In this document: piece after piece, positions 1 through 58,852 of the stretch
Numbering within the stretch: the first letter of the stretch is position 1
Layout: each line of letters starts with the position of its first letter
Assembly (NCBI GenBank): GCA_024742735.1
Contig: JANSXV010000008.1
Coordinates: forward strand, 1 to 64,000
DNA: 64,000 nt
Source of the DNA: Alphaproteobacteria bacterium
GTDB lineage: Bacteria; Pseudomonadota; Alphaproteobacteria; Caulobacterales; Maricaulaceae
Direction: 5' to 3'
Notes under the pieces: generated by a model
Databases searched by the model: none
Told to the model about the DNA's origin: nothing
Seen by the model: the letters and a program-made list of their open reading frames with translations, nothing else
Position numbers and translations under genes: made by a program

Positions 1-297
1 CAGGATCGCGCCGTCCATCTGAGCCGCGCCCGTGATCATGTTCTTCACGTAGTCCGCGTGGCCCGGGCAGTCCACGTGCGCGTAGTGACGGCCATCGGTC
101 TCGTACTCAACGTGAGCCGTCGAAATCGTGATCCCGCGCGCCTTCTCTTCAGGAGCGCCGTCAATCTGGTCATACGCCCGGAAGTCGCCGAAATACTTCG
201 TAATCGCAGCCGTCAGCGTCGTCTTGCCGTGGTCAACGTGACCAATCGTGCCGATGTTCGCATGCGGCTTGTTACGCTCAAACTTTTCCTTACCCAT
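1..297 (-). CDS. tuf: Elongation factor Tu, N-terminal part (gene runs off the left edge)
   Basis: EF-Tu is the GTPase that delivers aminoacyl-tRNA to the ribosome. The 99 visible codons start [19 protein letters not shown] and contain the P-loop [10 protein letters not shown] and the G3 motif [12 protein letters not shown], both diagnostic. The ATG is at 297 on the minus strand; the rest of the gene lies left of base 1. tRNA-Gly is about 150 bp upstream in the same direction, and an element-split tRNA-Tyr lies further upstream. This is the widespread bacterial tRNA-Tyr / tRNA-Gly / tuf order. The identification is secure, but whether this is the only tuf copy cannot be told from here. Confidence 0.97.
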
Positions 298-448
298 CGT
301 CGTGACCCTCACGCTTAAGGCTGCACCAGGACGGGGCACGAAGGGCCGCCGCCGCAAAACTGAGCGCGGGGGATAGCGCCCGAAACAGCCTATGGCAAGG
401 GGGCGTGCGCGCCCGGGGCGGTCAGAGTGCGGAGGAACGCAGGAAAGT

Positions 449-522
449 TGGAGCGGGTAGACGGAATCGAACCGACATATTCAGCTTGGAAGGCTGACGT
501 TCTACCGTTGAACTATACCCGC
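449..522 (-). tRNA. tRNA-Gly (anticodon TCC)
   Basis: On the minus strand the acceptor arms GCGGGTA and TACCCGC pair, the anticodon loop reads CTTCCAA (TCC), the T-arm holds GGTTCGATTCC, and the discriminator T is followed by an encoded CCA (449-451). It lies between tuf and the left end of the integrated element. It was probably co-transcribed with tRNA-Tyr before the insertion. Confidence 0.95.
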
Positions 523-675
523 CCGGAACCTCTTTTTTGACCGGCTTTGGCGTCGCTGACAAGGCGTGCGCTTCACATGGGCGCCATCCGGGAGCCGACA
601 TCACGGCGCCAGGGACAGCGGCGCGGCGGCTCTTGCGAAGATCGACCGAGCGGACACGAAGGAGGATTGAGGAAG

Positions 676-690
676 ATGGTGGAGGGGGCT
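676..690. repeat. Left attachment site (15-bp direct repeat)
   Basis: The 15-mer atggtggagggggct is identical to 9801-9815. It matches the last bases of tRNA-Tyr plus its CCA, so it is the 3' end displaced by integration. It lies 153 bp from tRNA-Gly, which would be the original spacer between the two tRNA genes. Confidence 0.88.
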
Positions 691-718
691 ACCGATTAAA
701 TTCTCCTGCAACGAGAAT

Positions 719-795
719 CACCCTTAGTCAACAATGACGCCATAACAGGGAGATAGCCGATCAGCCGCTATCACCCTATTGCACCCTTACTCAAC
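719..795. repeat. Paired direct repeats, possible integrase arm sites
   Basis: Two 14-mers, cacccttagtcaac (719-732) and cacccttactcaac (782-795), differ at one base and lie between the left attachment core and the integrase. A partial relative, caccctattgcac, overlaps at 772-784. The spacing and position fit integrase arm-type or excisionase binding sites. Together with the attachment core they fill the roughly 350 bp between tRNA-Gly and the integrase start; no gene is seen there. Confidence 0.5.
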
Positions 796-878
796 CTAGT
801 GCACATTCGTTGGTGGGTAGACCGTAGTTGAAAAGTGGTTCGGTGGACGGTTTAGGCAGTATAGAAAACGAGGCAACC

Positions 879-2180
879 ATGCCGCGAGCGGCGAGAGAGT
901 GGACGGCGCTTGAAGTCAAAAACGCCAAGCATTCGGGTGGGCGGGCGAACGACCGGCGCCCAGTTGGCGGCGTCCCTGGCCTGACCCTTCAGATAAGCCC
1001 AGCAGGCACGAAGTCGTGGTTACTGCGCTACTCTATTGCAGGACAGCGGCGCGAGATGGGCTTGGGCGCATATCCTGAAATCGGGCTGGCGAAGGCCCGC
1101 GAGCGCGCTCGCGACGTGCGCGATCAGATATGGGAAGGGCTCGACCCTGTAGCAGAACGCGACAAGCGCCGAGCTGAGATCGCGCTGGAGCGCGCAAGAC
1201 AGATGACCTTCGCCGACGCGGTGGAGCAATATCTGGACGCGCACCTAGACACCTTCCGAAACGAGAAACACAAATACCAGTGGCGGCAATCGCTGACCGC
1301 CTACGCTCTGCCCGTGCTCGGCAGCATACCCGTCGCGGACATTGACGTGGGCGATATGCTCCGCACGCTCGAACCTATCTGGAATACCAAAACCGAGACC
1401 GCCGCGCGGCTTCGCGGGCGCATTGAGAATGTGCTCGCATGGGCGACCGTGAAGGGCTATCGCACGGGCGACAATCCCGGCCGGTGGGCTGGCAATCTGG
1501 CCGCTGTCCTGCCCTCGCCGATCGCGGTTAAAAAGGCTAAGGCGGGCGGTAAAGAGGGACGCCAACCCGCGCTCGCCATTGCAGACGCGCCGCGTTGGTT
1601 CCGTGAGGTAAGACAGCGCGACGGCATGGCCGCCCTTGCCCTCGCCTTCCAAGCCCTGACCGCCTCGCGCTCCGGCGCGGTGCGGCTGGCGACATGGGAT
1701 GAAATCGACATGGACGGGCGGGCGTGGGTGATCCAGCCGGGCCGTGAGGCAAGCAAGATCAGCGGCTCGGCGCACCGCGTCCCGCTTACCGATCAAATGG
1801 TGGAGCTGCTGCGCGAAGCCGAGGCCGGGCGGCGTTCTGAGATGGTGTTTCCAGCCGCACGCGGCGGGCCGTTGTCTGACATGGCGTTGGGCAAAACCAT
1901 GAAGATGATCCACGCGGCGGACGTGAAGGCGGGCGGCGCGGGTTTTGTCTGCCCGACCATGAACCGGCCCGCCGTTCCTCATGGGCTTAGATCGACGTTT
2001 CGAGACTGGGCAGCGGAAAAGACCACCTACCCCTCGGAAATGGCTGAGATCGCCCTTTCGCACAACGTGGGCAGCGCGACGGAGCGGGCTTATCGGCGAT
2101 CCGACATGCTAGAGAAGCGCCGCGCCATGATGGCGGATTATGGCGCATTCTTATGGGGGCTGGCGGAGGCGAAGCCATGA
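879..2180 (+). CDS. Tyrosine-recombinase integrase (P4 type, DUF4102 arm-binding domain)
   Basis: This 433-residue site-specific recombinase would insert and excise the element at tRNA-Tyr. The N-terminal 90 or so residues form the arm-DNA-binding domain typical of P4-type integrases (KSWLLRYSIAGQRREMGLGAYP). A core-binding helical segment follows. The catalytic domain shows Arg264 (TASRSGAVR), the His368-x-x-Arg371 pair (HGLRSTFRDW), His395 (LSHNVGS) and the nucleophile Tyr405 (ERAYRRSDM), so it looks active. The ATG at 879 is preferred because a gagg stretch lies just upstream; an in-frame TTG at 828 is possible. It overlaps the next gene by 4 bases (ATGA). It sits at the end of the element away from intact tRNA-Tyr. 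Confidence 0.95.
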   Translation: MPRAAREWTALEVKNAKHSGGRANDRRPVGGVPGLTLQISPAGTKSWLLRYSIAGQRREMGLGAYPEIGLAKARERARDVRDQIWEGLDPVAERDKRRAEIALERARQMTFADAVEQYLDAHLDTFRNEKHKYQWRQSLTAYALPVLGSIPVADIDVGDMLRTLEPIWNTKTETAARLRGRIENVLAWATVKGYRTGDNPGRWAGNLAAVLPSPIAVKKAKAGGKEGRQPALAIADAPRWFREVRQRDGMAALALAFQALTASRSGAVRLATWDEIDMDGRAWVIQPGREASKISGSAHRVPLTDQMVELLREAEAGRRSEMVFPAARGGPLSDMALGKTMKMIHAADVKAGGAGFVCPTMNRPAVPHGLRSTFRDWAAEKTTYPSEMAEIALSHNVGSATERAYRRSDMLEKRRAMMADYGAFLWGLAEAKP

Positions 2181-2815
2181 CCGGCTTCACAGGTCTAGAC
2201 GGCTGGCCTTGTGAGTTTGAGCAAAGCCCTGTGGGCATGGCCCTGATCGCCGCAGTGCGCGGTCTGCCCGGTGCTGATGCACTATCCGAATCCGAAGCCG
2301 TCGCAGAGGCGAAGCTGTTGCATTTTGTTTCGCTGGCCGGACAGGACGATGAAATGCCTCGCAGCCGTCCCGCCTCACAAAAGGCAAGCGAGAACGAGAT
2401 CGCGCGACTGGTCGAACTCGCCTCAAGCCTTGCAGATCATATCGACACACTCAGAAGGCCCGCGGTTTCGGCATTGTTCGGTGAAGGCGCTGACGTGTTC
2501 ACGTTCGCCAAGCAGGCCCGTGAGATGGCAGAGACAGCGCGCATAGCCTTTAGCGAGATTGACGTGAAGACGCCTCCGCGTGGCGCACCTAAAAAGCTAG
2601 AGGCCGCCGAGGTGACGTATTGGGCCGCGTTCACCTATCAGAAGATCACGCGCTCGCCCGTAACGTTCACGACAACAGACACAACCCACGGCGCCAAAAT
2701 CAGCGGCGAATGGCCTGACTTTCTAGCGGCGGTATTTAAGGCGCTGCGCATCGACGCTAGCGTGGAGTCACAGGTGCGCGGCTTGAAATTAAAGGCTCGC
2801 AGAAAGCCCCTTTAA
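2177..2815 (+). CDS. Unknown protein translationally coupled to the integrase
   Basis: This 212-residue protein has no family I recognise. Its ATG overlaps the integrase stop, so the two are probably co-translated. It is soluble, with no signal peptide or membrane segment. The N-terminal third is acidic. A helical middle follows (ASENEIARLVELASSLADHIDTLRR), and the C-terminus is basic (LKLKARRKPL). The middle and C-terminal segment (TYWAAFTYQKITRSP) looks like a folded domain. In satellites, genes beside the integrase are often helper-interference, immunity or accessory functions, but nothing here identifies which. Confidence 0.7.
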   Translation: MTGFTGLDGWPCEFEQSPVGMALIAAVRGLPGADALSESEAVAEAKLLHFVSLAGQDDEMPRSRPASQKASENEIARLVELASSLADHIDTLRRPAVSALFGEGADVFTFAKQAREMAETARIAFSEIDVKTPPRGAPKKLEAAEVTYWAAFTYQKITRSPVTFTTTDTTHGAKISGEWPDFLAAVFKALRIDASVESQVRGLKLKARRKPL

Positions 2816-2883
2816 CTCCTTTATCCCGGCTGGCGGATGGTCGCTAATGGTTGGGCTCCTCTGATCGCAAATGGAGCTAAACC

Positions 2884-3120
2884 ATGTCTCTTGAACACGC
2901 CCGCCCCGGCCAATACGGCGGACAGGCGAAGACCTACAGCCTCGACATTAAGGACGTGGCCGCCCGCTATGGCGTGAGCGTCCCGACGATCCGCCGCAAG
3001 CTGGCCGCTGACCCTGATTTTCCGCAGCCCCTCCGTTTTTCCTCTCAGACGCACCGCTGGGCCGCCGCTGAGCTGGACGCCTATGACGCGCGCCAGACTG
3101 GCCGCGTGGAGGCGTCCTAA
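2884..3120 (+). CDS. AlpA-like helix-turn-helix regulator / excisionase
   Basis: This 78-residue protein has a single MerR/AlpA-type winged HTH (residues about 20-65): DVAARYGVSVPTIRRKL is the recognition helix region and RFSSQTHRWAAAELDAY is the wing and following helix. AlpA-family proteins activate integrase transcription in P4-like satellites or act as recombination directionality factors. A good Shine-Dalgarno (ggagc) lies 7 bases before the ATG. The stop overlaps the next start (TAATG). The family call is firm; whether it activates genes, excises the element or does both is inferred. Confidence 0.85.
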   Translation: MSLEHARPGQYGGQAKTYSLDIKDVAARYGVSVPTIRRKLAADPDFPQPLRFSSQTHRWAAAELDAYDARQTGRVEAS

Positions 3121-3434
3121 TGGCTGTCAATCAAAGTGACCTCCGCGACCTGATCGAGCTGGCGCGACAAGAAGGCCGCAAAAGCGCCAGGGCGATGAAG
3201 GACAGCTTCGCCGCTGGCCTGGACTATGGCCTCACGAAGCGCGAGCGCGTGGAAAATGAGCTGGACCTCCAGCAAGACACGCTGCGCCACGGCATCATTT
3301 TGAGGGACTTCGCCACCTTTCGCGGCTGTAGCGACGAGCAGGCAAGCCAAGTGCTTCAAGCCTTCGGCGCGGCGATCTGGGCCGCCTATGGCTATCGCTC
3401 CGAAACTTCTGCGCATCGACGCGGCGAGACCTGA
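3120..3434 (+). CDS. Small unknown protein of the element
   Basis: This 104-residue, mostly helical protein overlaps the end of the alpA-like gene by one base, so it belongs to the same operon. Residues 1-45 are strongly charged (LRDLIELARQEGRKSARAMK). The rest includes a possible small helical domain (FATFRGCSDEQASQVLQAFG). There is no signal peptide and no motif I recognise. About 80 bp separate it from the toprim gene. Confidence 0.65.
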   Translation: MAVNQSDLRDLIELARQEGRKSARAMKDSFAAGLDYGLTKRERVENELDLQQDTLRHGIILRDFATFRGCSDEQASQVLQAFGAAIWAAYGYRSETSAHRRGET

Positions 3435-3512
3435 TCGCGGCCTTGGCCCTCCCCTTCACGATAAGAAAAGGCCCGCCGCGCGTGCAGGCGCGAACGGGCC
3501 GAAAGGCTCGAA

Positions 3513-4427
3513 ATGCAACGTTTGAATATCCCCCCAGACCTCCAAAGGCAAGCCGACGCGCGCCTCATCGTCCTGGCGCGCGGCGGCGATTGGCATGGCC
3601 AGTACGGCCTCACCGCTTGCCCTGTTTGCCAGCCTGAGCGCCGCCGCGATCAACGCGGCCTGAGCGTCACTGATCGCCCCGGCGGCGGCCTGCTGGTGCA
3701 CTGTCACAAATCAGGCTGCGACTTTCGCGACGTGCTCGACGGCCTGGGCCTCGCCGCTCCGGCGTCTGGGTTCGCCTCCCGACAGACCGTAACAAGCGTA
3801 ACAAACGAAACAGAGCCCGGCCCGACTGACGCTGACCGGACGCGCCGTGCGCTCGGTATCTGGGCCGATGGCCAGCCGATCCAGCCTGACGATTTGGCCG
3901 CGCGATATCTCCGTGGTCGCGGGATCGACCTGGACTTCGCCGCGCTGGACCATGTGATCCGGTTTAACGCCTCGACGCCCTGGGGGCGCAAGCGTGTCCC
4001 GGCGCTGCTGGTGCGGATGCAGACCTTGCCCTCCATGAACACTTGCGGCGTCCAGCGCATCGCGCTCGACGCTGACTGCGCCAAGATCGGGAAGCGCATG
4101 CTCGGCAAGGCCGGTTATGCGTTCCTCTCTTTTGATACCTGTCCCGGCGCGGCGTTAGTAACGGAGGGACCGGAGGACGCGCTGGCGGCGCTGGTGCGTT
4201 ACCGCCTGCCCGTGTGGTGCGCCATGAGCGCTGGCGGCCTGGCGCGCTTTCCGGTGCTGAACCATTGGCACACCGTCGCGGTGCTGGCCGATGGCGATGA
4301 CGCTGGCCGCAGCGCCGCTCTGGACCTGGCGCACCGCTGGCGATCAGCTGGCCGCACCGTGCACATTCTCGACGCGCCAGATGGCCGCGACCCCAACGCG
4401 ATGATCGAGGGGGCGCACCATGACTGA
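3513..4427 (+). CDS. Zinc-finger and toprim primase-like protein
   Basis: This 304-residue protein resembles the primase half of a satellite replication protein. Residues about 30-75 hold a primase-type zinc ribbon (TACPVCQPE ... VHCHKSGCDF). After a linker, residues about 215-295 form a toprim fold: the acidic VTEGPEDALAAL, then VLADGDDAG as the metal-binding DxD-like strand. This arrangement is common in phage and island primases that pair with a helicase. The gene overlaps the DUF3631 ATPase gene by 8 bases, and the two probably form one primase-helicase unit. A TGTTAC-type repeat (3788-3803, reverse orientation) lies in the linker-coding part. The ATG at 3513 starts directly before the zinc-ribbon domain. 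Confidence 0.82.
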   Translation: MQRLNIPPDLQRQADARLIVLARGGDWHGQYGLTACPVCQPERRRDQRGLSVTDRPGGGLLVHCHKSGCDFRDVLDGLGLAAPASGFASRQTVTSVTNETEPGPTDADRTRRALGIWADGQPIQPDDLAARYLRGRGIDLDFAALDHVIRFNASTPWGRKRVPALLVRMQTLPSMNTCGVQRIALDADCAKIGKRMLGKAGYAFLSFDTCPGAALVTEGPEDALAALVRYRLPVWCAMSAGGLARFPVLNHWHTVAVLADGDDAGRSAALDLAHRWRSAGRTVHILDAPDGRDPNAMIEGAHHD

Positions 4428-5595
4428 TTTTCCCGGCCACGTTCTGGAACAGATCAAGGCTGACGGCTTCAGGCAGATGGCCAACCCCGGCGCGGACGTG
4501 CTGGACGCGGTGGAGGCCTTCCTGACGCGGTTTGTGGCCTACCCCCATGAGGGCGCATCGACCGCACACGCTCTATGGATCGCTCACACGCACATCATGG
4601 ATGCGTGGGAGAGCACACCCCGGCTGGCCTTCCTATCGCCTGAACCTGGAAGCGGTAAGACAAGGGCGCTTGAAGTCACCGAGCTGCTCGTTCCGAGGCC
4701 GGTGGAGGCCGTCAACGTCACTCCGGCCTATTTGTTCCGCAAGGTGGGCGACCCTGACGGCGCGCCCACGATCCTGTTTGACGAGATCGACACCGTGTTC
4801 GGCCCGAAGGCCCGCGACAATGAGGAATTGCGCGGCCTCCTGAACGCTGGACACCGGCGCGGCGCCACGGCTGGGCGATGCGTCGTAAAGGGTAAGCAGA
4901 TCGAAACAGAGGAAATCCCGGCCTACTGCGCCGTAGCGCTGGCTGGCCTGGGCGATCTGCCCGATACGATCCTGACGCGCTCGGTGGTCATTCCGATGAA
5001 GCGCCGGGCGGCTCACGAGACCGTTGAAGCATACCGGCGTCGGATCCATGCGACTGAAGGCCATGCGCTCCGCGACCGACTGGCTGACTGGTGCGCCTCG
5101 ATCGCGGGAACGGTTATGGAGGCGTTTCCCGAAATGCCCGATGGCGTCACCGACCGGAACGCGGACGTCTGGGAACCGCTGATCGCGGTAGCCGATGCTG
5201 CTGGTGGCGACTGGCCGGATGCAGCCCGTGTTGCGGCTGTTACGCATGTTACGCTTCTCGGGGAGGCGAACCCAAGCCTCGGCGTGACCCTGCTGCGCGA
5301 CATCAAGACCTGCATTGAAGGCAATGATCGCCTTGCCAGCACGGCCCTTGTGGATCGGCTCAACGCCCTGCCCGAAGCACCCTGGGCGGACCTGAAAGGC
5401 AAGGCGCTGAACGAGCGACGGCTGGCCTATCACCTCAAGCAATACGGGATCGGTCCGAAGGTGGTGCGCATCGGATCGCAGACGGTGCGCGGCTATGAGC
5501 GCGCCGACTTCGCGGACGCCTGGGCGCGATATCTGACGACTTCACCGCAGAATGCCCAAGAGGAAACAACGCATCCGAAAGGCGCGGCTTATTGA
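4420..5595 (+). CDS. DUF3631-type P-loop ATPase / replicative helicase-like protein
   Basis: This 391-residue protein has a Walker A motif (SPEPGSGKTRALE, residues about 70-82), Walker B (TILFDEIDTVFG), a probable sensor region (ALAGLGDLPDTILTRSVVI) and a C-terminal DUF3631 region that ends in a winged-helix-like segment (LAYHLKQYGIGPKVVR). Such proteins accompany toprim primases in integrative elements and are taken to be the helicase partner. The start overlaps the primase gene. Its coding sequence at 5225-5277 is duplicated imperfectly at 9389-9441, including a TGTTACGCATGTTACG repeat. The helicase role is inferred from family and neighbours. Confidence 0.82.
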   Translation: MTDFPGHVLEQIKADGFRQMANPGADVLDAVEAFLTRFVAYPHEGASTAHALWIAHTHIMDAWESTPRLAFLSPEPGSGKTRALEVTELLVPRPVEAVNVTPAYLFRKVGDPDGAPTILFDEIDTVFGPKARDNEELRGLLNAGHRRGATAGRCVVKGKQIETEEIPAYCAVALAGLGDLPDTILTRSVVIPMKRRAAHETVEAYRRRIHATEGHALRDRLADWCASIAGTVMEAFPEMPDGVTDRNADVWEPLIAVADAAGGDWPDAARVAAVTHVTLLGEANPSLGVTLLRDIKTCIEGNDRLASTALVDRLNALPEAPWADLKGKALNERRLAYHLKQYGIGPKVVRIGSQTVRGYERADFADAWARYLTTSPQNAQEETTHPKGAAY

Positions 5596-5701
5596 CGGAG
5601 CGGCACAAATGAGCGATATTCAGCACACGCCAGCAAGTGCATCCCGCGCGGCTGGCCACCTACCGGCAGGCGCATCCCAGCGCGGCCAAGGTTTGAGCGA
5701 A

Positions 5702-5717
5702 CGCCCGGTTTCGGGCG
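5702..5717 (+). promoter_or_regulatory. Small hairpin before the capsid module
   Basis: cgcccg and cgggcg pair perfectly around the loop gttt. The hairpin lies in the gap between the replication genes and the preferred protease start at 5744, followed by a good Shine-Dalgarno (gaggga). It could attenuate or process the transcript between the replication and head modules. It has no T-run, so it is not a classic terminator. Confidence 0.35.
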
Positions 5718-5743
5718 CGGTTTCACCTTGTGCGAGGGATGCA

Positions 5744-6427
5744 ATGCAGCACCTCCAAAAATACCAAGGCCCTGAACGCCTCTCCCCCGTGTTCGCCCTC
5801 GACATGAAGGCGGACGCCCAAGGTGTCGTGGAAGGTCTGGCCAGCCCGTTCGGCGGCCCGCCTGACAGCTTTGGCGACACAATCGCCCCCGGCGCATTCC
5901 GCGAAAGCCTGGACGAGCACAAGGCGGCTGGCACGGCCCCGGCCTTGCTCTGGCAGCATGACGCTCGCCAGCCCATAGGCGTCTGGTCCGATCTTCAAGA
6001 ACGCGAAGACGGGCTGCATGTGCGCGGGCGGCTGAACCTCGACACCGAACGCGGGCGCGAAGCTTTGGCGCTTCTGAAGCAGGGCGCCTTGAACGGGCTT
6101 TCAATCGGCTTCGCCATCCGCGAGGGCGGTTCCCGTCGCATGGACGGCGGCGGGCGTGAGCTGACTGCGGTGGACCTTTGGGAAGTGTCCTTAGTGACGT
6201 TCCCGGCGGCCCGGCGGGCGCGCGTGACTGGCGTGAAGTCAGCGGCGGACGTGCAAAGCCGCGCTGACCTTGAGCGCTTCCTGAAGAATGCCGGGTTTGC
6301 AAACCGGCTCGCCAAGTCGATCAGCCGCGACGGCTGGACCGACAAAACCCCCGACTCCTCCCCTGAAGACCTCGCCGCAATCGTCGCTGAGCTGCGCGCA
6401 TCTGCGGCCCGATTTATGAAAGGCTGA
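5744..6427 (+). CDS. HK97-family prohead protease
   Basis: This is the maturation protease of HK97-type capsids (peptidase family U35/S78). It cleaves the N-terminal scaffold domain of the capsid protein inside the prohead. It is 227 residues from the chosen ATG, the usual family size. The catalytic candidates are visible: His72 in LLWQHDARQPIGVW and Ser120 in NGLSIGFAI. The conserved opening EGLASPFGGPPDSFGDTIAPG is also present. The start at 5744 is preferred for its gaggga Shine-Dalgarno. An upstream in-frame ATG at 5609 would add 45 low-complexity residues. It ends 4 bases before the capsid gene, so the two are co-expressed. Confidence 0.92.
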   Translation: MQHLQKYQGPERLSPVFALDMKADAQGVVEGLASPFGGPPDSFGDTIAPGAFRESLDEHKAAGTAPALLWQHDARQPIGVWSDLQEREDGLHVRGRLNLDTERGREALALLKQGALNGLSIGFAIREGGSRRMDGGGRELTAVDLWEVSLVTFPAARRARVTGVKSAADVQSRADLERFLKNAGFANRLAKSISRDGWTDKTPDSSPEDLAAIVAELRASAARFMKG

Positions 6428-6431
6428 CCCA

Positions 6432-7616
6432 ATGGACATGGACGCCCTGAAGACCGCGCTCTCCGAACGTGACGGCGCAATCAAGACCCAACTCGACGCC
6501 ATCGCCGGACGCCTCGACAAGATCGAGACGAAGAGCAACCGCCTCCCCGGCGGCGGCGGCGGCAACACTGACGGCCTGACCGACTCCGACGCCATCGAAC
6601 ACCGCAAGGCGTTTGAAAAGTGGATCAGGAATCCCGACGCGGCGGCGGTGAAGGCCGACCTTGAACGTCTGCAGGAAAAGGCCGTCACGATCGGCAGCAA
6701 TTCCGGCGGCGGCTATGCCGTGCCTGAAGAGATCAGCCGGGACATTCAAAAGCGCCTGCGCGACCTGTCGCCCATTCGCCAGATCGCCCGCGTCACGCAA
6801 GTCGGTTCGTCCGATTTTAAAATGCTGGTGGACGTCAACGGTACCGCGTCCGGCTGGGTGGGCGAAGGCGATACCCGCAACGAGACCGGCACCCCGTCCC
6901 TGGCTGAAGTCGCGCCGACCTTCGGCACCGTCTACGCCTACCCCAAGGCCAGCGAGGAAAGCCTGAATGATATTTTCTTCAACGTGGCTGATTGGCTGGT
7001 GCGTTCTGTCTCTGAAGAACTGGCTATCGCGGAAGGCCAGGCGTTCATCTCCGGCAACGGCACCAAGAAGCCGACCGGCTTCCTGAACGGCACCCCGGAA
7101 GCTACCGGCGACAATGACAGCCCGGCGCGCGCCTTCGGCACCCTGGAATACGTCCCGACCGGCGTTGCGGGCGGCTTCGGCACCTTGTCCACGACCAGCC
7201 CGGAACACTATCCGGCGGACGTGCTTTGGCAGACCGTCTACACCCTGCGCGCTGGCTATCGTCAGAACGCTCGCTGGGTGATGAACTCCGCCACGGCTGG
7301 CGTTATCCGCCGCTTCAAGGATGCTGACGGAAACTATCTCTGGCGTGACGGCCTGGCCGCTGGACAGCCTGCGCTCCTGTGTGGCTATCCCGTGACCATC
7401 GCAGAGGATATGCCGGACATTGGCGCCAACGCCTTCCCGGTGGCCTTCGGCGACTTCGAGCGCGGCTATCTGATCGCTGACCTGATGGACCTGCGCATCA
7501 CCGTGGATGAATCCATCACCACGCCCGGCCAGACGAAATGGTATGTCCGGCGCCGCGTTGGCGGGGCGGTGCTGGATGACGATGCGATTAAGCTCATCAA
7601 GGTTGCGGTGAGCTAG
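6432..7616 (+). CDS. HK97-fold major capsid protein
   Basis: This 394-residue capsid subunit has the typical two-part structure. Residues 1 to about 85 are a helical, charged scaffold/delta domain (KTQLDAIAGRLDKIETK) with a Gly-rich hinge. From about residue 86 (VTIGSNSGGGYAVPEEI) the HK97 fold begins. Landmarks are the P-domain strand segment ASGWVGEGDTRNET, the FISGNGTKKPTGFLNG loop and the C-terminal PVAFGDFERGYLIADL. Its protease partner lies 4 bases upstream. An intact capsid gene without portal, terminase large subunit or tail genes is the defining oddity of this element. The capsid identification is firm; that it makes a distinct, probably small, shell is inference. Confidence 0.95.
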   Translation: MDMDALKTALSERDGAIKTQLDAIAGRLDKIETKSNRLPGGGGGNTDGLTDSDAIEHRKAFEKWIRNPDAAAVKADLERLQEKAVTIGSNSGGGYAVPEEISRDIQKRLRDLSPIRQIARVTQVGSSDFKMLVDVNGTASGWVGEGDTRNETGTPSLAEVAPTFGTVYAYPKASEESLNDIFFNVADWLVRSVSEELAIAEGQAFISGNGTKKPTGFLNGTPEATGDNDSPARAFGTLEYVPTGVAGGFGTLSTTSPEHYPADVLWQTVYTLRAGYRQNARWVMNSATAGVIRRFKDADGNYLWRDGLAAGQPALLCGYPVTIAEDMPDIGANAFPVAFGDFERGYLIADLMDLRITVDESITTPGQTKWYVRRRVGGAVLDDDAIKLIKVAVS

Positions 7617-7676
7617 ATCACGGCTTGGAGGGTGTCGACCGTTAGAAACTCCGGGCGGTTTCCACCTTTCAAGTCA

Positions 7677-7859
7677 GCGCCGGGCTGTTCCCCCGCCCAA
7701 GTGCGGCCCGGCGCACCCCTTTCAGCACGGTTCTCCATGACGTGCTGGAAACGGAGCGGTTTTGATGGTTTCCCGCTCCACCCCTGCGCTGGGTTTGCTC
7801 ATCCCGCGTGTCCCAGCGCCCCGCGCCCGGTTGGTCCTAGCATTGAGCCAGCCGGGCGC
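7677..7859 (+). ncRNA. Four tandem GC-rich stem-loops in the capsid-terminase gap
   Basis: The 343-bp gap between the capsid and terminase genes holds four consecutive hairpins. (1) 7677-7685 with 7706-7714, 9 bp perfect. (2) 7753-7759 with 7773-7779, 7 bp perfect. (3) 7786-7793 with 7812-7819, 8 bp perfect. (4) 7823-7834 with 7848-7859, 12 bp with one G-T wobble. None is followed by a T-run, so they are not simple terminators. This could be a structured RNA, a processing or 5' leader element, or a DNA/RNA packaging signal. Pairing is seen directly; function is unknown, and transcription as a separate RNA is not shown. Confidence 0.5.
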
Positions 7860-7959
7860 ACCGGGGGGCTTCAACTCTTCAACAGGCAGGGCAAAGGGAC
7901 CGGCGCGGGAACTTTCCTTTCACAACGCCCGCCCCGAATAGTTTTTTCAGGAGGCCGAC

Positions 7960-8298
7960 ATGGGCCGACGCAAACGCACCGCACCGGCGCACCTTAAGCC
8001 TGAGACAGCTGACTGGTTCGAGGCCGTCATGGCCGAGTACCTGCTGGAACCGCATCATGTTCGCCTCCTGACGCTGGCCGCTGAGACTTGGGACAGGGTG
8101 CAACAGGCGCGCGAACTGCTGGCCCGTGACGGCCTGTGTGTTCCGACTGGTGACGGCGGATTGAAGGCGCACCCCGCCGCGAACATCGAGCGCGACGCCC
8201 GCGCCGCCTTCGCCCGCCTTATTCGAGAACTGGACCTAGACGCGGACGCCGCGCCGCGTGACGCGCGCCCGCCCGCGCTCCGATCTAACAGAGGATAA
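7960..8298 (+). CDS. P27-family phage terminase small subunit
   Basis: This 112-residue protein matches the P27 small-terminase type. The N-terminus is basic (MGRRKRTAPAHLKPETADWF), the middle is helical (LLTLAAETWDRVQQARELL), and the signature segment GLKAHPAANIERDARAAFARLIRELDL is present. Small terminases recognise the pac or cos site and hand DNA to the large subunit. No large subunit is encoded here, so it would have to redirect a helper's motor, as in PICIs. A Shine-Dalgarno (caggagg) precedes the ATG. The structured gap lies immediately upstream. Confidence 0.85.
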   Translation: MGRRKRTAPAHLKPETADWFEAVMAEYLLEPHHVRLLTLAAETWDRVQQARELLARDGLCVPTGDGGLKAHPAANIERDARAAFARLIRELDLDADAAPRDARPPALRSNRG

Positions 8299-8304
8299 CC
8301 CGCC

Positions 8305-8544
8305 ATGCCTCGCAAACGCCGCAACGCTAAGGCCCGCGCCCAGATCGGCCCTGACGCCCTGGACGCCTTCAAGGCTGGCCGGTGGATGGACCTGCACCGC
8401 GCCTTGGGCCTTCGCCCCTGGGAAGCCTCGCCGCTGGACGCGACCGCGCCAGAGCCGCCCTCATGGGCCGCATGTGACGCATCAACCGCATGGGCCGCAT
8501 CATGGCCGCGTGCGTATGCCCTGCGCACTGAGCTAGTGGCGTAG
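8305..8544 (+). CDS. Small unknown protein after the terminase
   Basis: This 79-residue protein begins with a very basic stretch (MPRKRRNAKARAQIG), followed by a helical tract (ALDAFKAGRWMDLHRALGLRPWE) and a Trp/Ala-rich tail. It starts 6 bases after the terminase stop and is probably co-translated. It may bind DNA or a packaging partner, but no known domain is recognised. Confidence 0.6.
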   Translation: MPRKRRNAKARAQIGPDALDAFKAGRWMDLHRALGLRPWEASPLDATAPEPPSWAACDASTAWAASWPRAYALRTELVA

Positions 8545-8884
8545 GGGGGCGTTAGGTCTTCACGGCGGCGATCAGCGGACCGGCGGGGTGGTCAGCCGTC
8601 AGCGCTAATACAGGAAACGCCTCGTGCGCGCGTGCGCGCAACGGGCCTCGCATTCTTCAGCGCGCCCGGATCGGAGACCGGCGTGGGGCCTCTCTGCATT
8701 TCTCCGCAATTCAAATGTTGACCTTGAGCGGGATGAACAGGTGGCGCGGTGGGTCTACCTGCAAGGGCTAAAGGTTTCGGACAATCTGTCCGAAACTGAG
8801 AAAGCCAAAGGAGGAAGGCCGGGCGCGGGGCGCGGGTCAAATGGCGCAGATTGATCCGACGCTTAGGAAACTACGCCGAAAAGA
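8545..8884. other. Intergenic stretch of the element with no assignable gene
   Basis: This 340-bp stretch lies between the last head-module gene and the stop of the divergent regulator gene. It has no ORF that looks like a real protein. Its main feature is the palindrome at 8774-8796, listed separately. Confidence 0.5.
8774..8796. promoter_or_regulatory. Perfect 10-3-10 palindrome, candidate operator
   Basis: gtttcggaca and tgtccgaaac are exact inverted repeats separated by atc. No T-run follows, so a dimeric-protein binding site is more likely than a terminator. The winged-helix gene at 8885-9319 lies beside it and is the obvious candidate binder, although the palindrome is at that gene's 3' side. 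Confidence 0.5.
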
Positions 8885-9319
8885 TCATACACTTATCGCC
8901 CGGCCCGCATCGGTCAGCCCGACATAGCTTTGGCCCTGGCGCGATGCTCTGGAGCGCTCCACCAGCCCGCGACGTTCAAGCGCGGTGATGGCGCGCGAAA
9001 GGTTCACAACATCGTCGATGTTGCGTTCGCGGCGTTCGCGCTTGCGGCCCGCGCGTGGTCGAAATCGGGCAATGCTCGCGCCGAGCGAAAGGATCAGCGC
9101 CGCGTCTTTGTCGCCGTCGCGGGCTTGGCGTTCAATCTCTTCGCGCCAAGCCTTTGCACCCTCCATCTGTTCGATGACGACCGGGTGTTCGCGCTGAGCT
9201 ATCGCGGATACCCGGTCATGTATAACCGCAACCGCGAACCAGGCCGGGCCTTGTTCGACCTCAAGCTCAAGGAGCGCCCGCATCACCATGCGCTGAGATG
9301 ACCCTAACCCGCGACCCAT
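8885..9319 (-). CDS. Winged-helix (MarR-like) regulator, divergent from the rest of the element
   Basis: This 144-residue protein has a C-terminal winged HTH: NLSRAITALERRGLVERS is the recognition region and YVGLTDAGRAI the wing. The N-terminal half is helical (SSQRMVMRALLELEVEQG). A basic linker (RPRAGRKRERRERN) lies between. It is the only well-supported protein gene of the element on the minus strand, which is typical of the lysogeny-type regulator of islands and satellites. It may repress the main operon or sense a helper phage; the palindrome at 8774-8796 is a candidate target. The HTH call is good; the role is inferred. Confidence 0.72.
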   Translation of the reverse strand: MGRGLGSSQRMVMRALLELEVEQGPAWFAVAVIHDRVSAIAQREHPVVIEQMEGAKAWREEIERQARDGDKDAALILSLGASIARFRPRAGRKRERRERNIDDVVNLSRAITALERRGLVERSRASRQGQSYVGLTDAGRAISV

Positions 9320-9388
9320 TCCAAAATCCCTTCAAACGTGGAAATGGGCGGACCTGAAAGCCCGCCCGCTTCACCTTCTCCGCCGCGA

Positions 9389-9441
9389 CCCGTGTTGCGC
9401 TTGTTACTCATGTTACGCATCTCAGGGAGGGGAGCCCAGGC
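9389..9441 (+). pseudogene. Duplicated fragment of the DUF3631 ATPase gene
   Basis: 45 of 53 bases match 5225-5277 inside the ATPase gene without gaps, including the double TGTTAC repeat (9402-9417 here). No open frame continues the ATPase, so this is either a remnant of a second related replication gene or a retained DNA signal. It sits in the roughly 480-bp stretch between the regulator and tRNA-Tyr, which otherwise holds only the doubtful small ORF below and an AT-rich run before the attachment site. Confidence 0.6.
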
Positions 9442-9449
9442 GCCCTCCC

Positions 9450-9707
9450 TCACTCATGGCGGCGCGGGCCAGGAACATCGTCTGGTGCACCTGGTGGCAA
9501 CCTGCCCTGCCCGTCCGCCCATAGCGCTTCCACCTGGACCCGATCGCCGCAGCGCTTGCACCTGCGCTCACGCAAGGCCGCGCCCTGCTGAATCATCGCC
9601 TGCTGGTCCCGTTCGGCCTTGATGCTGACCGGCGCGAAGCAATCACGGGCGCATGTGACCCTGAAGACGGCGATATGTGGGCGTCTAAGCTGACTGGATT
9701 CATGCAT
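9450..9707 (-). CDS. Possible small cysteine-rich protein
   Basis: An 85-residue frame starting at ATG 9707 (GTG 9716 is possible) contains VTCARDC and RRCKRCGDR, two cysteine pairs that could form a zinc knuckle, and ends in a Pro/Gly-rich tail. It lies upstream of, and on the same strand as, the winged-helix gene. Composition and cysteine pairing are suggestive, but no family is recognised and it may be spurious. Confidence 0.3.
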   Translation of the reverse strand: MHESSQLRRPHIAVFRVTCARDCFAPVSIKAERDQQAMIQQGAALRERRCKRCGDRVQVEALWADGQGRLPPGAPDDVPGPRRHE

Positions 9708-9800
9708 GTTCTGCACTGCCTACAGGATGGCTGGCAGGATGGTGGGTTGATATCAAGCTGCTCCAGAAAATTTAATTAAATCAAATGCCTAGATGGTAAA

Positions 9801-9815
9801 ATGGTGGAGGGGGCT
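9801..9815. repeat. Right attachment site (15-bp direct repeat, inside tRNA-Tyr 3' end)
   Basis: This copy of atggtggagggggct is identical to 676-690. It overlaps the encoded CCA, the discriminator and the 3' acceptor strand of tRNA-Tyr, so the tRNA stays intact after integration. An AT-rich run (9768-9800) borders it on the element side. Confidence 0.9.
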
Positions 9816-9887
9816 GGATTCGAACCAGCGTACGCCGAAGCGGGCAGATTTACAGTCTGCTGGATTTAACCACTCTCCCACCCCTCC
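9802..9887 (-). tRNA. tRNA-Tyr (anticodon GTA)
   Basis: On the minus strand, GGAGGGG pairs with the CCCCTCC 3' strand, the anticodon loop is CTGTAAATC (GTA), a long variable arm is present as expected for tRNA-Tyr, and the discriminator A is followed by an encoded CCA (9802-9804). Its 3' end is the integration target of the 9.1 kb element. Confidence 0.96.
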
Positions 9888-10035
9888 ACTGAGCTCCTCT
9901 CTTTCGAGAGGATGCGCCCGCGGGAGCCGGGCGCTTGGGACCCGATCAAAAAACCGCCCCGCCAAACCCGATTGCGCCAGGGCGCTTGGGGCTTTAACGA
10001 GGCTGCTCCTTCGATCACGAGCGCGGACTATAGTC

Positions 10036-10875
10036 ATGGCCCCAACACGGCGCAACACCGGCAAGCGTCCCGATGCAGCACGGCGCTCAGGACCTCGGAA
10101 GCCGGGCGGCAAGCCGCGCGCCCAGGGCGGCGAAACCGACCCGAATGAAGGCTGGATCTGGGGCCGTCACGCTGTTCTGGCCGCGCTCGCCAATCCGCGC
10201 CGTCAGGTCCTGTCCATACATGTGACCCGCAACGCCGCCGATGACCTGTCCGACGCCGATCTGAAACGCGCCAGCCTGGAACCGCCTCACGAGATCGCCT
10301 CGCGCCTGCCCGATGGCGCAGTCCACCAGGGCTTCGCCGTGAAGGCCCGGGCCCTGCCGTCGGAACCGCTTTCGGCAGTGGCCGATCCGACCCATGGGCT
10401 CCTTGTGGTGCTCGACCAGATCACCGACCCGCAGAATGTCGGCGCGATCTTCCGCTCCGCCGCCGCCTTCGGCGCAAGGGCCGTGATCATGCAGGACCGC
10501 AAGTCCCCGCCCCTGTTCGGCGCCCTGTGCAAGGCGGCTGTCGGATGTGTGGAGACCGTCAGCCATGTGCGCGTGACCAATATCGCCGATACGCTGATCG
10601 AGCTGTCGAAGGAGGGCCGCGTTTCCATCGGTCTCGCGGGCGAGGCCGAGACGTCCCTGTCTGATCTGGTCGCCGAGCATGCCGGTCCCGGGCTTGTCAT
10701 CGTCATGGGCGCAGAGGGCGACGGCTTGCGCCCGCGCGTGGCCGAGCACTGCACCGCCCTGGCGCGCATTCCCATGGGGCCGAAGGCGGAGAGCCTGAAC
10801 GTGTCGGCGGCTGCGGCGATCGCCCTCTACGAAGCCTCCCGCTTCGATCCGCGGATCAATCCGGCCGAAGGCTGA
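10036..10875 (+). CDS. rlmB: 23S rRNA (guanosine-2'-O)-methyltransferase, TrmH/SpoU family
   Basis: RlmB methylates the 2'-O of G2251 in the 23S rRNA P-loop. The protein has 279 residues from ATG 10036. A basic N-terminal tail comes first, then the substrate-binding domain (WIWGRHAVLAALANP, residues about 40-55) and the SPOUT knot with the three family motifs: DQITDPQNVGAIFRSAAAFG, VIVMGAEGDGLRP and IPMGPKAESLNVSAAAAIALYE. An in-frame extension back to 9793 only reads through the complement of tRNA-Tyr and is rejected. The gene is divergent from tRNA-Tyr. Confidence 0.94.
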   Translation: MAPTRRNTGKRPDAARRSGPRKPGGKPRAQGGETDPNEGWIWGRHAVLAALANPRRQVLSIHVTRNAADDLSDADLKRASLEPPHEIASRLPDGAVHQGFAVKARALPSEPLSAVADPTHGLLVVLDQITDPQNVGAIFRSAAAFGARAVIMQDRKSPPLFGALCKAAVGCVETVSHVRVTNIADTLIELSKEGRVSIGLAGEAETSLSDLVAEHAGPGLVIVMGAEGDGLRPRVAEHCTALARIPMGPKAESLNVSAAAAIALYEASRFDPRINPAEG

Positions 10876-10943
10876 GCGTCTGGTCGATCCGCCCGGCGGC
10901 CTGCAGCGTAAGAAGTAGCATTGCAGCACCGAGGAGCCCCGCC

Positions 10944-11531
10944 ATGCCGACTGCTATCACACGCGTGATCCGCCTGCTGGTTCTGCCCGCGATGCTGATG
11001 CTGACCGCCTGCGCCGGGGGTCCGCAGCCCGCGGACCGGTCCGCGGAGTCTCCCTCCATGCTTCTGGAAGAGGTGCTGACCGGACGCACTTACGCCTACG
11101 CGGTGTTCGAGCGCGGAGGCGTCCTCGACCGGCGTTTCTGGGTGGAGGCCGTCGGCGACTGGGACGGAGACGCGCTGACCTTGGAGGAATACTTCCTCTA
11201 TGACGACGGGCGCACCGACGAGCGCGTCTGGACCTTCCGCAAGACCAGCGAGACCGCCTATGTGGGCACGGCCGCCGACGTGATCGGTCAGGCCGATGTC
11301 GAGGTCTTCGGCGACGCGGCCTATTTCGAGTACCGCGTCGATCTGGAGATGGAAGACGGATCGACCGTCGAGGTGAACTTCCAGGACCGGCTCTACCGGG
11401 TCAGCGAGGACACCATCATCAACCGGGCCACGGTGAAGAAGTTCGGCCTGGTGGTCGGACAGGTCACCGTGGTGTTCTTCAAGGATCGTCCGGCCGACTG
11501 GCCGGACATCCCCGGCGCCCCGCCGCTCTAG
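10944..11531 (+). CDS. DUF3833 family lipoprotein
   Basis: This 195-residue exported protein has a lipoprotein signal: a hydrophobic stretch LLVLPAMLMLTACAGG with the lipobox Cys at about residue 23. The mature part matches the DUF3833 pattern: RRFWVEAVGDWDGDALTLEE, then YFEYRVDLEMEDGSTVEV, then RATVKKFGLVVGQVTVVFF. These are acidic beta-rich proteins of unknown role in the envelope. The stop overlaps the convergent GIN-domain gene by 4 bases. Family call good, function unknown. Confidence 0.8.
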   Translation: MPTAITRVIRLLVLPAMLMLTACAGGPQPADRSAESPSMLLEEVLTGRTYAYAVFERGGVLDRRFWVEAVGDWDGDALTLEEYFLYDDGRTDERVWTFRKTSETAYVGTAADVIGQADVEVFGDAAYFEYRVDLEMEDGSTVEVNFQDRLYRVSEDTIINRATVKKFGLVVGQVTVVFFKDRPADWPDIPGAPPL

Positions 11532-12511
11532 CAGCCGGTCTCGAAATCACCGCTGCCCGTGGTGCGAAGGCTTTGCACGCTTTCGGCGGCCCCGACCCTC
11601 ACGCCGCCGCTGCCCGACAGGCGGACATCGACGCTGGCGGCGGTTCCGCAGAAGCGCACGCTGCTTGACCCGCTGGAGCGCACTTCAAAGGAGGCCGCGC
11701 GCCCATCCGCGATGCGCACATCGCCTGAGCCGGACAGGGTGACCGCCAGCGGGCCGTCGAGGCGGCCCATCACAAGCTCGGCTGAGCCGCCTGACCGCAT
11801 CGTCAGTCCCTGCGCAGAGACGGCTTCCAAGTCACCGCTGCCGCTGGCGGAATAGACCAGCGGACCAGAGATCGCGCCAAGCTCGACATCACCCGATCCG
11901 CTGACGCTGACATCCGCGCTGGCGGCATTCCCGACCGTCACGTCGCCGGAGCCGGATACGGAGACCGACAGCTCTCCGGTCACGTCGCCCAGCGTCACAT
12001 CGCTGGAGCCGGCGATGGCGATTCGCGCCGCGCCGCCGACATCGCCAGCCGTCACATCCGCTGAACCGGCCAGACCGAGCTGCGCGGCGCCCGCGATGTC
12101 GCCGGCCTCCACCGAACCGCAGCTGGACAGACCAAGATCGAGCGAAGCCAGATCGCCGAGACGCGCGCGCACGATGGAGTCTTCAAGCTCCACCGCCGCG
12201 GGTTCCGGGGTGGTGATGACCAGAAGCGGCAATTCGTCGAAGGACCGCGCGGACCGGCGGTTCACGCCGACCCGGGTCTGGCGCCAGCCACCCCGGCAGC
12301 CCCATTCGCGCATGTCGCGTCCGCCATCGATGACGAGCGAAGCCGCCGTCTCCTCGATGCTGACCGGTCCCTCCGCGTCGGGGCGCTCGATTCGCACTGA
12401 CAGGCTCGCGCCCTCCTCGATGCGGATTTCTCCGGCGAAGTCGGTAATGGAGATGGACGGTGCGCCGGAAGCCTGGACGGCGGCGGCTGCGGCGAGGACG
12501 AGGAGGGACAT
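11528..12511 (-). CDS. GIN-domain (DUF2807-like) repetitive beta-helix protein
   Basis: This 327-residue exported protein has an N-terminal hydrophobic signal (MSLLVLAAAAAVQASG). From residue about 120 onward it consists of repeating short strands with recurring SGSGDV/AGSSDV motifs, as in GIN or putative auto-transporter-adhesin head domains. These fold as right-handed beta-helices. The Gly-Ser-Gly-Asp turns are very regular, about one every 18-20 residues. The two Cys in the first half (EWGCRGG, SSCGS) may pair. Such proteins are envelope-associated with unknown role. It is convergent with the DUF3833 gene. Confidence 0.75.
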   Translation of the reverse strand: MSLLVLAAAAAVQASGAPSISITDFAGEIRIEEGASLSVRIERPDAEGPVSIEETAASLVIDGGRDMREWGCRGGWRQTRVGVNRRSARSFDELPLLVITTPEPAAVELEDSIVRARLGDLASLDLGLSSCGSVEAGDIAGAAQLGLAGSADVTAGDVGGAARIAIAGSSDVTLGDVTGELSVSVSGSGDVTVGNAASADVSVSGSGDVELGAISGPLVYSASGSGDLEAVSAQGLTMRSGGSAELVMGRLDGPLAVTLSGSGDVRIADGRAASFEVRSSGSSSVRFCGTAASVDVRLSGSGGVRVGAAESVQSLRTTGSGDFETGC

Positions 12512-58638: not shown

Positions 58639-58639
58639 C

Positions 58640-58852
58640 ATGACCGCCCGCCGCCCCTCCCCTGAATGGATCACGAAAGCCATTGACGCTGCGCGCGCGG
58701 CGGGTGTTACGCCCGGCACCGTGGAGATCAGCGCTGACGGTTCTGTTCGCATCCACGCGCCCGGCGCGTACACTCCCCAGGACGCTTACGGGGAGTGGAA
58801 GCGTGGACGTAAATCTAAAGGGCGTGCATCGGGTCCGCAGGAGGCTCGCTGA
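58640..58852 (+). CDS. Small phage-type unknown protein
   Basis: This 70-residue protein starts MTARRPSPEWITKAIDAARA and ends in a basic tail (GRKSKGRASGPQEAR). It starts 1 base after the previous stop and overlaps the integrase start by 50 bases. It is the type of short ORF that precedes integrases in alphaproteobacterial prophages. Confidence 0.6.
   Translation: MTARRPSPEWITKAIDAARAAGVTPGTVEISADGSVRIHAPGAYTPQDAYGEWKRGRKSKGRASGPQEAR

Follow-up and report, generated by a model that had tools for sequence, protein, structure and literature searches.

A probable phage satellite at tRNA-Tyr with a head module reduced to protease, capsid protein and small terminase

Insertion site and gene content

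Within the window (the whole 64-kb stretch of DNA that was analysed), 9,140 bp are enclosed by two copies of the 15-bp repeat ATGGTGGAGGGGGCT, the attR side being the 3' end of tRNA-Tyr (Table 1). These are the sole copies in the window on either strand, the chance expectation for such a repeat was 0.00 (100 shuffles), and a 40-bp stretch of the tRNA end shared at most 10 bp with any of 106 chunks of 500 bp to the right of position 10,500. Insertion into a tRNA-Tyr/tRNA-Gly/tuf cluster, which the earlier note had proposed together with perfect repeats around 9.1 kb, was likewise borne out. The left flank encodes what we take to be the N-terminus of EF-Tu, and the tRNA-Tyr block was matched in 15 of 15 genomes of the genus, the host's own included. 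An empty site was found in two of 13 relative loci examined, with tRNA-Gly to tRNA-Tyr gaps of 127 and 145 bp; the gap here is 154 bp with the element left out. An RNA-family search of positions 1-12000 returned the two tRNAs and nothing else. Nine stretches surrounding tRNA-Tyr in the genus gave no capsid, protease, DUF3631, portal or terminase match. One integrase was present among them, sited at tRNA-Phe.

Table 1. Coordinates of the element, its target site and flanking tRNA in the window.
Feature	Position	Strand	Basis
tRNA-Gly	449-522	-	
attL, 15-bp copy of the tRNA-Tyr 3' end	676..690	.	
Tyrosine integrase, P4 type	828..2180	+	Arm-DNA-bind_3, Phage_int_M, Phage_integrase (Pfam)
220-aa protein, no assignment, overlaps integrase end	2153..2815	+	
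AlpA-like helix-turn-helix regulator or excisionase (weak)	2884..3120	+	PHROGs
104-aa protein, no assignment	3120..3434	+	
Toprim/DUF7146 primase-type protein	3513..4427	+	Toprim_3/DUF7146; phrog_510
DUF3631 protein, P-loop ATPase, putative replication type	4420..5595	+	Pfam, E 3.6e-61
Prohead protease, Peptidase_S78	5552..6427	+	Pfam, 6.4e-29
HK97-type major capsid protein (MCP), Phage_capsid, 394 aa	6432..7616	+	Pfam, 1.1e-75
Small terminase (TerS), Terminase_4, phrog_83	7960..8298	+	Pfam, 3e-8
79-aa protein after TerS, no assignment	8305..8544	+	
Winged-helix candidate regulator (MarR-like, below cut-off)	8885..9319	-	
attR, overlaps tRNA-Tyr 3' end	9801..9815	.	
tRNA-Tyr (gta), integration target, intact	9802..9887	-	

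The main open reading frames (ORFs) are intact. The likelier integrase start, as read from the sequence, is an ATG near 880, and alignment places the true protease start probably near 5744. Pfam matches upheld the gene list of the earlier note except for the AlpA-like protein, which fell under every Pfam cut-off and matched PHROGs families only (phrog_597, DNA-binding, 1.8e-7; phrog_66, excisionase/regulator, 1.1e-5). Several PICI traits are present: site-specific integration through an own integrase and att repeats, a candidate replication module (Toprim plus DUF3631), and a TerS, which redirects packaging in some PICIs. MCP and head maturation protease, both cf-PICI traits, are present as well. 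TerS is located after MCP and not first. It is 51% identical to the TerS of another element, L302; a single-sequence query found no viral TerS relatives, and a two-row TerS profile recovered L323, L324 and L302. A 45%-identical piece of the 79-aa protein adjoins a TerS remnant in L331. Estimates of dN/dS against relatives were about 0.18-0.24 for MCP, protease and the DUF3631 protein, at dS values of 1.5-2.0 that are near saturation. A PADLOC defence scan of six window proteins gave nothing at E 0.1.

The head module and its capsid protein

Portal and large terminase (TerL) profiles were run against all element ORFs of at least 30 aa with hmmsearch --max, and the best E value was 0.92. As a control we used 128 loci that lack DUF3631 and whose MCP scores at least 60 bits and is preceded by 4 kb or more of sequence. 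The portal profile detected 127/128, a rate that is flattering because some control loci were profile seeds. The TerL profile found just 51/128, and the absence of TerL therefore rests mainly on ORF size, the largest coding-strand ORF without assignment being 220 aa. PHROGs scans of 16 element ORFs, which covered the small ORFs in part, recognised no family for tail, connector, HNH or lysis functions. With that qualification for TerL, profile and PHROGs scans agree with the earlier note that portal, large terminase, connector, tail and lysis genes are missing.

The MCP has a short N-terminal delta region, with 82 aa before KAVTIG. It is the sister of the MCP of L101 (100/97), itself portal-less, inside a clade of 78 phage rows that is split (100/100) from 18 GTA reference rows, the latter chosen by context or host and checked gene by gene in part. 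By this phylogeny the MCP is outside the GTA clade. A second tree again paired the two proteins (100/99). The first tree flagged L101 as having a long branch; the second did not. Counted from the first possible start codon, and hence as upper bounds, 141 residues precede the WVGE landmark in the window MCP and 134 in L101, compared to at least 170 in the other 76 rows, so that this pair has the shortest delta regions of the clade. Among all 243 MCP loci, 11 others have fewer than 141 residues, and every one of them is placed with the GTA reference rows in the second tree (100/100). Since GTA-side MCPs are also short at the N-terminus, short length alone is no proof of a satellite role. Nor is shortening a general rule of the class, because the MCP of L312, an element with the same gene order (see below), aligns almost end to end with phage MCPs, and a shortened delta was rejected there. 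The closest solved structure to the window MCP was 6TB9 (RcGTA-type; E 7e-76). A structure prediction from a three-row alignment was set aside (mean pLDDT 33).

Besides the element's own MCP, the host genome contains a single further MCP match, located in a GTA-like cluster (L287). That cluster includes TerL, portal, protease and MCP, along with genes judged by eye to be of tail type. Identity to the element's proteins is 48% for the cluster's protease (118 aa) and 41% for its MCP (386 aa). A genome search for PF04860, Terminase_6N and TerL_ATPase placed the single above-cut-off PF04860 portal and the single Terminase_6N TerL in this cluster. One TerL_ATPase, with a weak portal, belongs to L290, a second satellite-like, cf-PICI-like element at tRNA-Ser that encodes TerL, HNH, MCP, protease, weak portal and a head-closure protein. 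By tblastn (E 0.01) the MCPs of L290 and the window did not match, and among 10 ORFs of L290 none was recognisable as a tail gene. Within these portal, terminase and MCP searches, no prophage of the element's capsid lineage was seen in the host genome, which was the source that the earlier note had considered for a deletion derivative.

Recurrence of the reduced layout

After removal of 13 repeats of the same places, 62 listed DUF3631 loci became 49. An MCP of at least 50 bits was found in 11/49, of which 7/11 also have a portal or TerL; the 4/11 with neither are the window element, L092, L302 and L312. The order in L312 is identical to that of the window element (int-h-AlpA-h-Toprim-DUF3631-(h)-protease-MCP-TerS, with AlpA and TerS below Pfam cut-offs), although its DUF3631 protein is only 38% identical and its MCP gave no match at E 0.01. 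L302 carries an integrase, TerS-h-h-protease-MCP, with TerS below cut-off, and 15-bp att copies at tRNA-Ser. In L092 (Paracoccus ravus), int-h-AlpA-Toprim-DUF3631-h-MCP lies within 14-bp att copies; the MCP stands alone, with no detectable portal or TerL and no protease or TerS by profile search. L347, L348 and L349 combine integrase, protease and MCP with no detectable portal or TerL and no recognised TerS, and L348 has 51-bp att copies at tRNA-Arg. A protein at the post-integrase position is also encoded in L312, L302 and L092; none shows BLASTP similarity to the 220-aa protein of the window, and a single family was rejected, the position being common and the sequence not.

Both att copies are present in four elements (the window element, L302, L348 and L092), all of 9.1-9.7 kb. 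The contigs of L312, L347, L349 and L101 do not hold both copies, and a gene missing there may lie beyond their ends. The MCPs of the portal-less elements fall into three or more groups that do not match one another by BLASTP over the shell. The layout is thus no one-off deletion, as L312 repeats the order and L302, L347, L348, L349 and L092 are similarly reduced; the earlier note had counted a lack of related compact elements against its own reading. Other candidates were rejected or left uncounted: L323 has the usual gene run of a phage (TerS, TerL, portal, protease, MCP), L131 and L096, at first sight without portal, show by eye GTA-like runs of genes at the ends of contigs, L100 is fragmentary and scattered, L304 and L306 have MCP scores of just 28-32 bits, and L330 and L324 are incomplete. 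A literature search, mostly outside subscription journals, returned no paper on a portal-less satellite with protease, MCP and TerS.

Interpretation and comparison with known systems

We consider it probable (about 0.6), judging from gene content, that the element is a tRNA-Tyr phage satellite carrying only the shell part of a head and obtaining the rest from a helper. The element apparently has no portal, motor or tail and therefore probably rides on a helper virus. We read it as supplying shell, protease and TerS, and as taking portal, motor, tail and lysis from the helper. From the earlier description of a capsid-forming satellite with a short head module, the tRNA-integrated, satellite-like character and the head cut to protease, MCP and TerS were retained; capsid formation is kept as a proposal, and by its gene content the element is not a cf-PICI.

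We infer the following cycle. When a helper phage enters the cell or becomes induced, regulation of the AlpA type would turn on the integrase and the Toprim/DUF3631 replication genes, and the element would excise at the 15-bp att site and replicate. Its MCP, with the delta (scaffolding) region shortened, would form a small shell around the helper portal, alone or with helper MCP, and its protease would cut off the delta regions. TerS would deliver element DNA to the helper TerL, and the small head would take one element length before joining a helper tail.

It is unlikely that the element is instead a decaying and now immobile remnant, left after a prophage or a cf-PICI-like element had shed its portal, TerL, connector and tail genes. 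Such a loss is conceivable because two phage contigs with close MCPs (L201 and L204) keep TerL and portal upstream of MCP, and L331 shows a TerS remnant with an in-frame stop. However, the intact ORFs, the TerS placed after MCP, the low dN/dS, the gene order repeated in L312 at low identity and three further portal-less elements of similar size with both att copies all argue against decay. Unlikely, too, is that MCP and protease are weapons that spoil helper heads and protect the host, the element itself travelling in ordinary helper heads via TerS. Plasmid-expressed Ccm lowers helper titres 10^3-10^4-fold (PMC5052747), but deletion of the capsid-protein gene of EcCICFT073 is reported not to restore normal phage (PMC6092414). 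The co-encoded protease and shortened delta fit shell building, and a limit on head size is suggested by how little the four complete elements differ in length; none of these points is decisive.

The remaining alternatives concern the identity of the helper. GTAs package host DNA without preference, and the host's own GTA could in principle lend portal, TerL, tail and release, the element adding a shell for more than 4.5 kb, a matching protease and a sequence-specific TerS. The presence of L287, with its related protease and MCP, favors such a helper, as does the capacity of RcGTA heads, which hold less than 4.5 kb (PMC7296036). We nevertheless regard it as very unlikely, as the MCP groups with phages apart from the GTA reference rows and, among ten DUF3631 proteins, the L312 and L347 versions most resemble one another and those from out-of-class genomes. 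Co-occurrence of element and GTA says little, because MCP matches, probably mostly GTA, occur in 102/137 family genomes. If this reading were true, the element would act as satellite to a domesticated phage and turn host-controlled GTA production to its own transfer. That L290 gives portal and TerL is scarcely credible: it encodes both, together with other head genes, but its MCP gave no tblastn match to that of the window and no tail gene was recognised.

For the preferred reading of a shell-carrying satellite, the significance lies in a gap between known strategies. Satellites in the cited literature follow one of two plans: either a lone small protein or MCP homologue alters the helper capsid, or the satellite encodes a complete head module. 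The element and its relatives fill that gap with shell and protease, TerS in some, and no detectable portal or motor. This suggests that in HK97-type phages the shell can be exchanged apart from portal and terminase. Such exchange would have occurred repeatedly and involved different capsid proteins, and where a capsid protein is its own scaffold, the delta region would offer a natural point at which to control size. The element also adds capsid-bearing satellites for Alphaproteobacteria and offers a compact testable system for studying how a foreign shell is built on a helper portal.

Like cf-PICIs, the element has MCP, protease and TerS on an integrase-bearing satellite. However, portal, connectors, TerL and HNH belong to the published cf-PICI gene set (PMC10690885); as none of these was found here, the gene content indicates that the element is not a cf-PICI, and its 9.1 kb compare to an average of 14 kb (PMC10803314). 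PICMIs are marked by int, AlpA, a DUF3987 or DUF5906 primase and the Fis gene as site marker (PMC10803314), whereas the element lies at tRNA-Tyr and no DUF3987 or DUF5906 match was found among its proteins. AlpA was reported in all E. coli PICIs of PMC6092414. A capsid-protein homologue is carried by both EcCICFT073 and PmCI172, the latter yielding small capsids 38-39 nm long; the accessible text of that source does not describe the trio of protease, MCP and TerS, and replication genes and hosts differ (PMC6092414). RcGTA-type GTAs provide the closest solved MCP structure, and some members have a short N-terminal region, but they have portal, TerL and tail (PMC7296036), unlike the element with its integrase, att site and MCP outside the GTA rows.

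SaPIbov5 and other cos SaPIs with Ccm are packaged by helper machinery, as is proposed for the element from its genes. The SaPIbov5 parallel is incomplete, because Ccm is described as unable to form capsids alone and SaPIbov5 as having no protease (PMC5052747, PMC8569155). The element adds protease and TerS, resides in another host phylum and uses other replication genes (Toprim and DUF3631). In SaPIbov5, Ccm shrinks the helper capsid, its delta being 87 aa compared to 128 in the helper capsid protein and the capsids small, T=4 (PMC8569155), and a correlation of capsid size with delta length has been proposed (PMC5052747). By analogy, the shell of the element may be mixed with helper protein rather than self-made. 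Like the Ccm-bearing SaPIs, the element is read as a chromosomal satellite, and both have an HK97-fold MCP homologue (PMC5052747, PMC8569155); the Ccm-type trait of a delta shorter than in related phage MCPs is present in the element.

Integration site and gene content

The element is bounded by two copies of a 15-bp repeat, the right one forming the 3' end of a tRNA-Tyr that is itself intact, and adjoins tRNA-Gly and the start of the EF-Tu gene on its left. Chance is a poor explanation of this pair, because shuffled sequence gave no match to the repeat, and when the tRNA-Tyr end was compared with each of 106 500-bp chunks taken right of position 10,500, no shared stretch was longer than 10 bp. 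The tRNA-Tyr block was matched in 15 of 15 genomes of the genus, its own included. Among 13 relative loci examined, tRNA-Gly lies 127 and 145 bp from tRNA-Tyr in two, a spacing that fits an empty site (leaving out the element, it is 154 bp here); four more have distances of 0.5, 1.1, 3.6 and 5.7 kb; the others have tRNA-Tyr without adjoining tRNA-Gly or reach a contig end.

The gene order is integrase, a 220-aa protein without assignment, AlpA-like HTH, a 104-aa protein likewise, Toprim primase, the P-loop ATPase gene DUF3631, Peptidase_S78 protease, HK97-type major capsid protein (MCP), Terminase_4 small terminase (TerS), a 79-aa protein without assignment and a minus-strand winged-helix ORF. 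Portal and large terminase (TerL) profiles, built from loci collected in this analysis, gave a best E of only 0.92 against all element ORFs of at least 30 aa. The control set was 128 loci lacking DUF3631, each with an MCP scoring 60 bits or more and with 4 kb or more of upstream sequence. In this set, which includes some of its own seed loci, the portal profile was positive in 127, and the TerL profile in only 51. For TerL, therefore, more weight falls on size: the largest coding-strand ORF without assignment is the one of 220 aa. A PHROGs scan covering 16 of the element's ORFs turned up no tail, connector, HNH or lysis family. Values of dN/dS of 0.18-0.24 against relatives, with synonymous sites near saturation, indicate that the MCP, protease and DUF3631 genes are kept.

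Coordinates of the features discussed (window positions unless a locus is named)
Feature	Coordinates	Remarks
Element at tRNA-Tyr	676-9815	9,140 bp
15-bp repeat	676-690 and 9801-9815	either strand searched; only two copies in the 64-kb window
MCP of the element	6432 on
Likely remnant of another element	57617-59849
tRNA-Lys beside it	59855-59930
GTA-like cluster L287	G000:C30:970000-989900
Second integrated element L290	L290:8850-18829 (G000:C30)	9,980 bp; 14-bp att copies at tRNA-Ser (gct)
IMG/VR element L101	L101:1-8817	adjoining tRNA-Lys
Tail-assembly gene of L347	L347:8870-9466	phrog_32
Lambda_tail_I match of L349	L349:9040-9636	weaker match
DUF3631 relative in L189	L189:11322-12020 (-)	65%

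Recurrence of the portal-less layout

The DUF3631 gene was matched in one of 137 family genomes, its own, and in eight of 385 class genomes (own included), and a five-row profile matched 17 of 398 phylum genomes, again own included. Removing 13 repeats of the same places from 62 DUF3631 loci left 49, of which 11 have an MCP of at least 50 bits. Seven of these also carry a portal or TerL; the remaining four, with neither, are the window element, L092 from Paracoccus ravus, L302 and L312. The compact protease, MCP and TerS layout described in the earlier note does recur: L312 has the complete gene order, its AlpA and TerS falling below Pfam cut-offs, and in L302 TerS (below cut-off, 51% identical to that of the window) precedes protease and MCP. 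Scanning with the L312 protease retrieved L347, L348 and L349, where the profile search detected no portal or TerL. After protease and MCP, L347, which carries DUF3631, has a tail-assembly gene; L349, with an AAA_25 helicase, has a weak Lambda_tail_I match in the same place. L101, whose contig starts inside the element, carries AlpA, protease, MCP, a weak HNH and DUF6950, with no detectable portal or TerL; its 740-aa protein has a weak, tail-tip-like Phage-tail_3 match, and the part for host recognition may be the element's own. Four elements have both att copies: the one at tRNA-Tyr (9,140 bp), L302 (9,624 bp), L092 (9,635 bp) and L348 (9,695 bp).

Two loci were left out of this tally: L330, where TerS is followed by an MCP in which the contig ends, and the incomplete L324, with MCP, TerS and then longer genes without assignment. 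Outside the class, L336, L337 and L338 have an int-AlpA-Toprim-DUF3631-h97 backbone near tRNA genes, with no head genes recognised. Since L336 has a 1323-aa protein and others after h97, this slot may be a cargo site. By eye, the L189 element seems to have a terminase-small-subunit-like protein.

Relationships of the capsid proteins

The MCPs of all these elements match Pfam Phage_capsid, and at E 0.01 BLASTP places them in groups without mutual matches over the shell domain: the window MCP with those of L101 (63%) and L092 (39%); L312, L347, L348 and L349 (42-94%), joined by L324 at about 30%; and L302 alone. The L302 and window MCPs match over only 37 residues (38%, E 3e-4), which seem to belong to the N-terminal scaffolding part, where they also look alike by eye, and their shell domains have no BLASTP match. 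The resemblance hints, without proving it, that the scaffolding regions are related and the shells not.

In a 96-row shell-domain tree the window and L101 MCPs are sisters (100/97) within a 78-row phage clade; outside that clade (100/100) lie 18 gene transfer agent (GTA) references, chosen by context or host and not every one verified gene by gene. A second tree of 30 rows recovers the pair (100/99). Lengths were counted starting at the first possible start codon, which makes them upper bounds: 141 residues precede the WVGE landmark in the window MCP and 134 in L101 (flagged as a long branch), at least 170 in the other 76 phage-clade rows and 108-380 in the GTA references. Among 243 MCP loci, 12 have fewer than 141: L101 and 11 others, all on the GTA side of the 30-row tree (100/100). 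The L312 MCP shows no such shortening of the N-terminal scaffolding (delta) region relative to phage MCPs.

Host genome and comparison with known satellites

The host genome (34 contigs, 3.2 Mb) has two MCP matches and, among the families searched (PF04860, Terminase_6N, TerL_ATPase), one PF04860 portal above cut-off and one Terminase_6N TerL. These two lie in the GTA-like cluster L287 with the second MCP, a protease and what look by eye like tail-type genes. Among 61 loci, the best named matches to the cluster's MCP come from Oceanicaulis and Glycocaulis, at 66-73% identity, which makes a Maricaulaceae-like alphaproteobacterium the probable host. The sole TerL_ATPase match is inside L290, which carries AlpA, replication initiator, head closure, TerL, HNH, MCP, protease and a weak portal match (E 3e-6, below cut-off). 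Judged by its genes, this layout resembles that of a capsid-forming phage-inducible chromosomal island (cf-PICI), here in an alphaproteobacterium. In the window itself, a DNA-repair/recombinase-type protein, a NinB-like protein and an integrase adjoin tRNA-Lys and are likely the remnant of another element; no bounding direct repeat of at least 14 bp was found between 56500 and 61000.

The tRNA-Tyr element is real and probably works as a satellite; it belongs to a type that recurs and that carries a shell but no detectable portal. The earlier note had called it a capsid-forming satellite, which holds for a satellite-like element with shell genes. A cf-PICI, as defined in PMC10690885, carries portal, connectors, TerL and HNH; as none of these was found by the tests as run, we do not file the element there. 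Our search, which left most subscription journals outside, returned no paper on a satellite with protease, MCP and TerS and no portal.

The closest parallel is SaPIbov5. Its capsid-protein homologue Ccm has a delta domain of 87 residues against 128 in the helper protein (PMC8569155) and takes the pentamer positions in small T=4 heads that replace prolate ones (PMC5052747, PMC8569155). Where phage capsid proteins scaffold themselves, a satellite finds no separate scaffold that it could swap, which makes a replacement MCP a natural way to alter head size. The window MCP would alter the head, in a shell either pure or mixed with helper protein, its own protease being supplied too; TerS would redirect DNA loading, and portal, TerL, connectors, tail and lysis would have to come from outside. 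The element's mode of action would be that of a Ccm-type PICI to which protease and TerS have been added.
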